Shown one piece after another: positions 26,833 through 48,380 of a stretch of DNA of 64,000 bases. Origin of the DNA: Halopseudomonas nanhaiensis. GTDB taxonomy: Bacteria > Pseudomonadota > Gammaproteobacteria > Pseudomonadales > Pseudomonadaceae. The position numbers and the translations under genes were made by a program. Below the pieces are notes generated by a model. That model was given only the letters and a program-made list of their open reading frames with translations. It did no database searches and was not told where the DNA came from. Every line of letters begins with the position of its first letter. The stretch's first letter is position 1. Location: assembly GCF_020025155.1 (NCBI RefSeq), contig NZ_CP073751.1, positions 2,607,167-2,671,166 of the forward strand, read 5' to 3'.

Positions 26833-26997
26833 GTGCCGATAGTCGAAGCCGAGCGGCTTGAAGTTCTGATTGAATCAGGCGCCAGCCGACTCTGCCTGGA
26901 GCAGGTCGAGTACAACCTGCGCCGGGCGATGGCCGTTGCCATCAGGGAGGCCCAGCAGGCCTGCAGAACCGTGTCGTCGCCCGTCCAGTCCGGATGA
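26833..26997 (+). CDS. Possible small ORF or gene remnant
   Basis: A GTG-initiated frame of 54 codons directly after an in-frame TGA, with amphipathic, protein-like composition (EAERLEVLIESG, LEQVEYNLRRAMAVAIREAQQ). There is no ribosome-binding site before the GTG, so it may be the tail of a decayed gene or a chance frame. No family recognised. The surrounding 26781-27007 contains nothing else I can support. Confidence 0.25.
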   Translation: MPIVEAERLEVLIESGASRLCLEQVEYNLRRAMAVAIREAQQACRTVSSPVQSG

Positions 26998-27094
26998 TCG
27001 AGCACCTCGTTGCGATGCTCCGACGTTCCGCCGCCAGCGCTGCTGGCTCCGGTCGAACCGCCAGGGTCCTCACCCCGGTCACCCCTGATAAACG

Positions 27095-27122
27095 AAAAAG
27101 CCCAGCATTCGCTGGGCCTTTT
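27095..27122 (-). terminator. Repeat-borne terminator, copy 3
   Basis: GCCCAGC-GAAT-GCTGGGC on the minus strand with T-rich flank; the same hairpin as in the other two units, farthest from the tRNA. Confidence 0.75.
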
Positions 27123-27272
27123 CATTTATTGGCGGAGAGACAGGGATTATTCGGCGCCGGAGGCGCCTCACCCCTTCGGGGCCGCCGTCGCTGCGCTCCA
27201 GCGTTCCTTCGCCAGCATTGCTGGCTCCGGTCGAACCGCCAGGGTCCTCACCCCGGTCACCCCTGACAAACG

Positions 27273-27300
27273 AAAAAGCCCAGCATTCGCTGGGCCTTTT
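27273..27300 (-). terminator. Repeat-borne terminator, copy 2
   Basis: Identical hairpin GCCCAGC/GCTGGGC followed by TTTTTCG on the minus strand, in the second 178-bp unit. Confidence 0.75.
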
Positions 27301-27450
27301 CATTTATTGGCGGAGAGACAGGGATTATTCGGCGCCGGAGGCGCCTCACCCCTTCGGGGCCGCCGTCGCTGCGCTCCAGCGTTCCTTCGCCAGCATTGCT
27401 GGCTCCGGTCGAACCGCCAGGGTCCTCACCCCGGTCACCCCTGATAAACG

Positions 27451-27478
27451 AAAAAGCCCAGCATTCGCTGGGCCTTTT
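27451..27478 (-). terminator. Terminator of tRNA-Ser (copy 1)
   Basis: Seven bases after the tRNA 3-prime end, GCCCAGC/GCTGGGC with loop GAAT is followed by TTTTT on the minus strand. A-rich sequence on the other side could also let it act on plus-strand transcripts. Confidence 0.85.
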
Positions 27479-27485
27479 CATTTAT

Positions 27486-27575
27486 TGGCGGAGAGACAGG
27501 GATTCGAACCCTGGGAACAGTTGCCTGTTCAACGGATTTCGAATCCGTCCCGTTCGACCACTCCGGCATCTCTCC
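27486..27575 (-). tRNA. tRNA-Ser (CGA)
   Basis: A 90-nt class II tRNA on the minus strand: acceptor GGAGAGA/TCTCTCC, anticodon loop TTCGAAA (CGA), long variable arm with AACAGGCAACTGTT, T-loop GGTTCGAATCC and encoded CCA. It lies just downstream of purC, as in P. aeruginosa (from memory), and heads the 178-bp repeat array. Confidence 0.97.
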
Positions 27576-47331: not shown

Positions 47332-48380
47332 CAAAACGATAAGTCCTCTGGTCTGAATCGCAAGAGCTTGTTGCGATAGTCGCGATCGAAGATGGCCGGG
47401 TTTTCCCGCGACAGCTGCTGCATCTCCGGGATCCGCCCGACGTTCTTGACTGCCTGCACCGCGGATTGATCAAAGCCCGCGTCACCACTGGACCGGGTGA
47501 CCACCGCATCGGTGATCTGGCCCGTGGGCAACATGCTGATGCGCACTTCGACCACCATGCCGTTGCGCGCTGTAGGCGGTCGACGCCATTGCTCGCTGAC
47601 GTAGCGGCGAATGACATCATCAAAACTGGCCGCAACCTCATCGCCGATCTGGTCGGCCTGGGCGCGCTGATACTGGGTTTCTTCCGCGAGCAGCTCCGAC
47701 AGAGCTCGGGCCCGTGCGTCTTCCTGTTCGCGCTTCTCTCGAGCTACGCGGTCGGCCTCGGCTTTCTTCTTCGCCTGCTCAGCAGCCTTGCGTTTGGCAT
47801 CCTCGGCCGCCTTTCGCTTGGCCTCTTCCGCTGCCTTGCGCTTGGCGTCTTCAGCAGCCTTCTGTTTGGCTGCATCGGCTGCGGCGGCTTTTTTCTGCGC
47901 CTCTTCCTCGGCGCGCTTGCGGGCAATATCTGCCTGACGCTTGGCTTCCGCCTCGGCTTTCTGCTTGGCGGTCTTTTCCGCTTCGGCGCGCGCTGCAGCA
48001 ACCTGCTTTTGCCGCTCGGCCTGCGCAGCGGCCGCAGCTTCCTGGCGGGCCTTGTCTGCAGCAGCCTGACTGGCAGCTTCCTGCGCTTCCTGCTGTTCCT
48101 GTTTCTTGCGCTCGAGCTCTTCGGCTTCGTGCGTCGGCGCAGCCGTACGCTCAGCTTCCCCGGCGATACGCTGATTGGTTTGCGTGGTGGCCGGACTTTT
48201 CGAGTTTAGCTGAACGAGTCGAGCCTGCACGATCGGCTTGGCGGGCTCGAATTCAGGGGCCGACGAGAACGAAACGAACAGCAATGCCGCCACCACGACG
48301 TGAAGCGCAACCGCCTTGATAGCCGACGCGGTAAATCGCCCGGTTCCGCCCTCGCGCGGGTGGTCTTCGCGTGTGTTCAC
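47331..48380 (-). CDS. tolA: Tol-Pal system protein TolA
   Basis: A 349-residue inner-membrane protein: one N-terminal helix ([20 protein letters not shown]), a long Ala/Lys/Glu helical domain (residues about 80-235, with repeated [18 protein letters not shown]-like segments) spanning the periplasm, and a C-terminal domain that contacts TolB and Pal. The start is GTG in a GTGA overlap with tolR. Confidence 0.95.

Follow-up and report, generated by a model that had tools for sequence, protein, structure and literature searches.

In the 64,000-nt stretch of the Halopseudomonas nanhaiensis genome that we analysed (the window), a tRNA-Ser(CGA) gene is followed by a tandem array of 178-bp units. 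A sequence-only reading of this DNA had already placed the repeats behind the tRNA and named no strand; ARAGORN and Rfam both put the gene on the minus strand at 27486-27575, so that the array lies 3' of it. The features of the locus are as follows.

27486..27575, minus strand: tRNA-Ser(CGA) with genomic CCA (ARAGORN and Rfam); the repeated end is its last 19 nt, 27486-27504
27308..27485, minus strand: unit 1, a full 178-bp cassette (TRF, unit search, 19-mer positions)
27443..27485, minus strand: terminator-like hairpin and T run of unit 1, abutting the tRNA CCA (reading, script test)
27308..27450, minus strand: RtT-type structured part of unit 1 (R2, 86.5 bits; RF00391, 32.3 bits)
27308..27326, minus strand: tail of unit 1, identical to the last 19 nt of the tRNA (sequence comparison)
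27130..27307, minus strand: unit 2, full, one base apart from unit 1 (unit search, 19-mer positions)
27130..27272, minus strand: RtT-type structured part of unit 2 (R2, 85.4 bits; RF00391, 31.6 bits)
27130..27148, minus strand: tail of unit 2, identical to the last 19 nt of the tRNA (sequence comparison)
27017..27129, minus strand: partial unit 3, with terminator, left arm and start of the body, without tail (TRF, unit comparison)

Along the tRNA strand, the elements follow one another as tRNA, terminator, structure, tRNA-end copy, terminator, structure, tRNA-end copy, terminator and partial structure. As the sequence-only reading had it, the 19-mer TGGCGGAGAGACAGGGATT occurs three times at a spacing of 178 bp (27130, 27308 and 27486), and we found it at no other site in the window on either strand; the single base by which the two full units differ is at position 41. 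The claim that every unit has its own terminator also holds: each copy carries the same hairpin, and a hairpin scan lists three, with the T run on the plus strand. On the tRNA strand the hairpin is followed by TTTTT (by reading, and by a script test for unit 1). For the assembled sequence TRF reports a period of 178, 2.7 copies and 97% matches, and its score of 927 is the top of the four TRF rows for the window. In the partial unit 3, homology extends over about 113 nt, differences from the complete units are scattered from position 90 on, and the R2 model described below gives just 18.3 bits, over 26930-27094. The ORF list includes open frames that overlap the array. On the plus strand at 27489-27540, the complement of the tRNA-Ser matches RF04351 (Plastid-psbl-rps4) at 54.3 bits, with a cut-off of 68; this family may have antisense tRNA-Ser among its members. 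A separate set of 24/48-bp tandem repeats with 76-79% matches (TRF) lies at 47779-47882.

The genome is a single contig of 3,653,147 bases. Elsewhere in it, unit matches consist of just 37-40 nt of terminator in two places, adjoining tRNA-Arg(CCG) and tRNA-Ser(TGA). A second tRNA-linked array stands behind tRNA-Arg(CCG) (L004 955-1478; G000:C1 ~118356-118879), with a period of 138 bp and 3.8 copies. By reading, it is like the window array in its tandem arrangement, in a similar hairpin order and in carrying AATCCTGTCG as in its own tRNA, but it reaches only 18.8 bits with R2 and no CCCGnAGGG core is visible in it by eye; it is either a diverged cousin or a second family.

A search of the genus found the tRNA-Ser-linked unit behind tRNA-Ser(CGA), (TGA) and (GGA). 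Unit matches occur in 23 of 37 genomes (E<=0.001), part of them terminator only, and R2 finds units in 22 of the 37 (E<=0.01). Twenty-one of the 28 stretches from this search (L036-L063) hold a tRNA, which is always tRNA-Ser (CGA, TGA or GGA), and 7 hold none. TRF periods in these relatives are 170, 173, 175 and 186. By reading, the inner tails of many relatives hold no more of the tRNA end than roughly its first ten bases (AATCCCTGAC and similar), following the local tRNA, and in several arrays (L007, L010, L011, L014, L017, L036) the inner copies are about one unit long but have lost the tRNA acceptor part as well as the terminator's left half. The shortened inner tails count against the explanation that we favour below.

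The sequence-only reading had likened the array to the E. coli tyrT/rtT repeats, giving these a period of 178 and a repeated tRNA end, and E. coli records confirm both. The Rfam RtT model RF00391 scores the two complete units at 32.3 and 31.6 bits; the gathering cut-off is 45 bits, and for this reason we do not file the array as a member of RF00391; the low scores also count against the explanation favoured below. The match spans the whole consensus, positions 1-130, and at E<=1 the two complete units are the sole matches reported in their genome. At the same threshold, 23 of the 37 genus genomes match, none of them above the cut-off, and of 370 genomes drawn from the class 65 have a match at E<=0.001, with 25 above the cut-off.

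We also built a covariance model with 33 pairs, R2, on an alignment (A1) of 67 units, one per genome and tRNA type, in which the last ten tail bases equal those of the tRNA and no N occurs. The training rows all represent other genera of the class, and the tRNA-Tyr rows are without the E. coli tail. R2 thus owes nothing to the window but does depend on Rfam, because its training units were collected with RF00391. It scores the window units at 86.5 and 85.4 bits, within the range of five annotated E. coli RtT genes from two strains (85.0-88.9), which places them in a broader RtT-type family. The proposed kinship with the E. coli repeats is therefore upheld, as RF00391 matches both units and R2, containing neither array, scores both alike. 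The argument from an equal 178-bp period, on which the rtT-like reading also leaned, falls away: 17 of 20 class-draw intervals shorter than 400 bp measure 154-224 bp and one of them is 178, and among the matches listed for a public set 8 of 15 intervals measure 165-184 bp. We rejected the shared period as evidence of kinship, since class intervals mostly range over 154-224 bp. What the window and E. coli arrays do have in common is the unit body and a unit that ends in the 3' end of its own tRNA.

A unit consists of a closing helix, P1, and the hairpins P2, H1, H2, H3 and H4. In A1, 85.9% of cells are paired in this structure, compared with 70.1% after shuffling and 32-52% when the structure is slid, percentages that lean towards the structure because it was picked from the pair statistics of the same alignment, for which tails had been preselected to agree in their last ten bases. 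Two-sided changes occur in 24 of 33 pairs (8 of 10 in P1), and covariation is 0.388, compared with 0.150 in shuffles (0/500). An unconstrained fold of A1 yields just 10 pairs, which we think is due to MAFFT misalignment of the variable hairpins. In the window units, P1 forms between left arm and tail with 8 of 10 pairs standard; the R2 alignment has non-standard bases at the other 2 of 10 P1 pairs and at 3 of 7 H1 pairs, which counts against the explanation that we favour.

The balance of G-U and A-C pairs bears on the strand and on the kind of molecule. Over all helices of A1 there are 102 G-U and 56 A-C pairs, and the variable hairpins H1, H2 and H4 together are without G-U excess (17 G-U, 24 A-C). 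A hairpin-wise count over 200 distinct bodies, which caught H4 in just 37 of them, gives 37 G-U versus 12 A-C (p=5e-4), and the stems of tRNAs, used as a control, give 77 and 3. The G-U bias weakly favours an RNA of the tRNA strand, and transcription-linked mutation bias could contribute to the excess. Palindromes at the DNA level are possible because the ratio of 3:1 is far under the 77:3 of tRNA stems.

The relation between each unit and its tRNA follows a simple rule. The class draw with RF00391 gave 132 rows, 2 of them the window's own, and our analysis covers all but one of the remaining 130. Of these 129 units, 101 have the end of a same-strand tRNA within 700 nt upstream, and 84 have it within 100 nt. 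An exact copy of the last 18 nt of that tRNA is present in 75 of the 101 units, compared with 6.3 on average and at most 13 over 2000 shuffles of the tRNAs, and the tRNA-Tyr-like end of RF00391 may favour complete tails in this count but cannot select a local tRNA of another type. Set against every other tail sequence for the same amino acid, the own tRNA fits best in 87 of 97 cases, with 4 ties and 6 losses. In the 75 perfect tails the next base outward matches the tRNA in 61 (mostly a body A) and the following two in none, which sets the start of the copy at tRNA position 59, or 58. The window units agree with this pattern: a same-strand tRNA lies directly 5', and the tail equals its last 18 nt.

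We assembled a second set with a plain DNA pattern of the body that includes nothing of the tail beyond AATCC, covering at least 118 public genome stretches and 3 viral contigs. Among the matches listed there are 136 in 121 stretches, of which 106 lie behind a tRNA within 900 nt; 75 of these 106 are exact over 18 nt (shuffled mean 2.7, maximum 10, 2000 shuffles). The nearest tRNAs of these listed matches represent twelve amino acids, nine of them with at least one exact tail, and the hosts include Citrobacter, Kosakonia, Pectobacterium, Marinobacter, Thioalkalivibrio, Alteromonas and Salinisphaera. In a draw of 397 genomes of the phylum, R2 finds a match in 79 (E<=0.001), and 30 of the 79 belong to other classes. 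The best 29 loci of the 79 matching genomes, one per genome and all in other genomes, stand behind a tRNA in every case and have exact 18-nt tails in 22; outside the class, 13 of these loci lie behind a tRNA and 9 have exact tails. Exact tails have been seen for Ser, Gln, Tyr, Arg, Glu, Pro, Lys, Val and Thr among the matches listed and for Asp in the phylum draw. Two tRNA-Asp units of the latter end in AGTCCC, as does their tRNA; the agreement with the tRNA thus includes position 59. The sequence-only reading thus understates the case: the rule spans many tRNA types, and the left arm of the unit is tRNA-matched as well.

Some units have no same-strand tRNA upstream in range, 28 of 129 in the class draw and 30 of 136 among the matches listed for the second set, and these count against the explanation that we favour. 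At least 300 nt of upstream context is available for 18 of these 28 and 17 of these 30, and an upstream T-loop motif in 3 of the 18 and 1 of the 17 points to a tRNA gene missed by ARAGORN. Six of the 28 class units stand less than 100 nt upstream of a same-strand tRNA, as described for Pasteurellaceae. Units so placed upstream of Ser or Gln tRNA genes are G434:C141, G306:C1:1583782, G306:C1:491687, G550:C1:836046, G397:C27:4877 and G410:C56:19139. Complete serine-type tails with no upstream tRNA found in the stretch occur in L248, L311, L314, G433:C1:102928-103063 and G512:C13:7603-7749, which are either solitary copies or sites of lost tRNA genes. RtT-type units are also present on three contigs of a viral collection (L331, L332, L333), one of them beside tRNA-Thr, and these are perhaps host flanks of prophages. 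The body pattern further occurs in metagenome bins labelled Candidatus Auribacterota and Nitrospira (L243, L281), through either wrong binning or transfer.

At the other end of the unit, we found complementarity between the first 50 nt and the 3' part of the unit's own tRNA (87 units), with a mean local score of 14.0 compared with 9.9 for shuffled tRNAs (maximum 10.7 in 5000 runs) and exact antisense runs of up to 20 nt. Against tRNA bases outside the tail, the score is 5.11 vs 4.40 in the class set and, among the matches listed, 5.11 vs 4.53 in the public set, in each case above all 3000 shuffles. Because the match reaches tRNA bases that are absent from the tail, the partner to which the left arm is fitted is the tRNA, and not the tail alone. 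Among the 87 tRNAs, the own tRNA is the best or tied partner of the left arm in only 51 of 87 units, which counts against the explanation that we favour, and by reading the window's own left arm deviates from the T-loop of its tRNA.

Copy number can be followed at the tyrT locus of E. coli, for which we compared 15 of 17 listed matches (H8 and H15 left out), taken from the top of one list and from across another and thus not a random sample. Fourteen of the 15 loci have two tRNA-Tyr genes, with a spacer of 33-34 nt in 8 and of 209 nt in 6, and the long spacer consists of the short one with an RtT unit in front, whose last bases copy the tRNA 3' end. The six long-spacer tails are identical to the tRNA 3' end over 19 nt in 3 strains, with one difference in 2 and two differences in 1. 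Behind the second tRNA-Tyr, exact tails number zero at one of the 14 loci, one at six, two at five and three at two; the fifteenth strain has a single tRNA-Tyr and a unit without exact tail. The presence, absence and copy number of units vary precisely at unit boundaries in these 15 loci, a comparison that does not separate gain from loss. A shortened RtT consensus matches 4,615 of 5,426 E. coli genomes.

The duplicated segment may exceed the tRNA end, because at some loci of other genomes the stretch past the tail resembles the stretch past the tRNA, terminator included (by reading). A terminator-like hairpin stands between tRNA and left arm at 33 of 84 loci, compared with a mean of 0.2 in shuffled stretches. 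In the window, the terminator between the tRNA and each unit counts against reading the units as transcribed.

The explanation that we favour, and hold to be probable, is that the array is a tandem of RtT-type, tRNA-tailored cassettes with unit turnover, a role as RNA and occasional movement. The sequence comparisons above show the RtT-type family to be a structured element that lies mostly directly 3' of tRNA genes of many types. The right end of most linked copies is a verbatim copy of tRNA positions 59-76, and the left arm tends to complement the T-arm and the acceptor 3' strand of the same tRNA, with the result that P1 rebuilds the T-stem/acceptor helix. Across the E. coli strains, the tRNA-end copies are the exact points at which whole units are found, missing or repeated. 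Recombination or slippage (unequal exchange) between these copies would add and remove cassettes in this way, and the near-identical units of the window fit such turnover as seen in E. coli. The cassette would act as an RNA within the tRNA transcript: when the terminator is read through, the product may be a unit that imitates a tRNA end by its P1 helix and CCA, and the tRNA 3'-end machinery would trim at each tail and free an RtT-like RNA. From time to time cassettes may reach other tRNA genes, where their ends would be rewritten from the new tRNA or selected to match it. A RefSeq note on the E. coli units describes rtT as processed from the tyrT transcript, and the accessible part of PMC4986893 reports Northern signals for RtT RNAs in Actinobacillus.

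Several other explanations have to be weighed against this one. An independent, convergent duplication of the tRNA end unrelated to rtT, or an assembly artefact, would suit the low RF00391 scores of the window units, but R2 scores them like E. coli RtT, units are found by R2 in 22 of 37 genus genomes and the assembly is a single contig, and we give this explanation almost no weight. We rejected convergence without rtT kinship on the RF00391 matches and the R2 scores. It is also improbable, if less extremely so, that the units are a cis-regulatory switch in which the left arm pairs with the nascent tRNA and blocks it, or pairs with a decoy in its own GGTTCGA/tail, and so tunes tRNA yield. The fit of the left arm to the local tRNA outside the tail (in the class set and among the matches listed for the public set) and the long exact antisense runs are as such a switch would have them; against it, a terminator separates tRNA and left arm in the window and at 33 of 84 loci, the order of the sequence means that the tRNA is finished before the arm is transcribed, and the window's left arm departs from the T-loop. 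A DNA-level palindromic repeat (REP/BIME-like), or quasi-palindrome debris behind tRNA genes with no RNA function, strikes us as a little less improbable than the switch and still unlikely. The stems are nearly all Watson-Crick, A-C is ahead of G-U in the variable hairpins of A1, and the accessible part of PMC2965389 assigns an Enterobacteria cluster similar to rtT to BIMEs. The G-U excess in the larger count, the near-invariant unpaired columns and a covarying tandem GA motif in RtT, given in the accessible part of PMC7657543, speak against it; tRNA-linked units were counted on the tRNA strand by design, so their orientation is no separate evidence here.

Movement between tRNA genes supplies the remaining alternative, a non-autonomous mobile element that inserts at tRNA 3' ends, duplicates positions 59-76 as its target site and has its ends rewritten at each insertion. 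We see this as a real possibility that nevertheless falls well short of an even chance. Empty and filled alleles in E. coli (spacers of 33-34 nt vs 209 nt), exact tails for ten amino acids (among the matches listed and in the phylum draw) and the sharp boundary of the copy, with the two bases beyond the next matching in 0 of 75, all speak for it. So does the likeness of bodies within a genome: over 26 pairs from 85 units, bodies from one genome that sit at different amino acids resemble each other more than chance predicts (0.724 vs 0.654, 0/5000 permutations), and in genome G214 the bodies of a Gln and a Val unit agree to 94%, with tails and left arms that differ, each following its own tRNA. 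Between genomes, mean body likeness is 0.648 at the same amino acid and 0.654 at different ones. The nearest body in another genome is at the same amino acid for 40 of 85 units, where 28.7 are expected, a count that speaks against free movement. Loss by recombination between direct repeats accounts equally well for the empty sites, rewriting of the left arm goes beyond ordinary transposition, and at some loci the direct repeat exceeds 18 bp, terminator included. In a bolder form, which we think unlikely, RtT-type cassettes would be an unrecognised class of tiny, tRNA-gene-borne mobile elements with both ends rewritten from the resident tRNA. They would occupy many tRNA genes at the 3' end, both in the class of the window and in at least one further class of the phylum. 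Copying primed by tRNA, as in retroelements, produces a boundary like that at tRNA positions 58/59, and by this analogy the left arm resembles a primer-binding site and the right end a primer that has been copied.

Most accounts treat RtT as a by-product of a single E. coli operon or as a family of small RNAs. RtT RNA is, by second-hand account, a processed product of the tRNA transcript with an effect on the stringent response. The rule set out here, that units usually bear both their own tRNA's end and an arm complementary to that tRNA, defines a family and predicts where to look for it. It opens questions for the laboratory: is a tRNA-like RNA processed from the units, do they tune the tRNA, and do they move? 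Judged from the matches collected here, the RtT family is widespread, little noticed and broader than the sequence-only reading guessed. We found no title or start of an abstract that states the own-tRNA-end rule across many tRNA types, in a search that covered subscription literature thinly, and the rule is unstated in the accessible parts of PMC4986893, PMC2965389, PMC7657543 and PMC4710047, which deal with RtT.

Direct repeats of the 3' part of a tRNA also mark the attachment sites of integrative elements at tRNA genes. RtT-type units share this tRNA 3' direct repeat with them but are cassettes of about 180 bp, with a left arm matched to the tRNA and with many tRNA types as neighbours. The RtT RNAs of Pasteurellaceae (Arrc20, Arrc21) are like the window units in belonging with the Rfam RtT family and lying near tRNA genes, and have Northern signals of their own (PMC4986893, accessible part). 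They differ in standing upstream of Asn and Lys tRNA genes, and a copy of the local tRNA end goes unmentioned in that part of the paper. The E. coli RtT/tyrT repeats (RF00391) are like the window array in their structured body, in the 19-nt tRNA 3' end of each unit, in their variable copy number and in their period of 178. They are linked to tRNA-Tyr, whereas the window array is linked to tRNA-Ser(CGA), has a serine-type tail in place of the tRNA-Tyr one, scores below the Rfam gathering score and carries a terminator-like hairpin directly after the tRNA.
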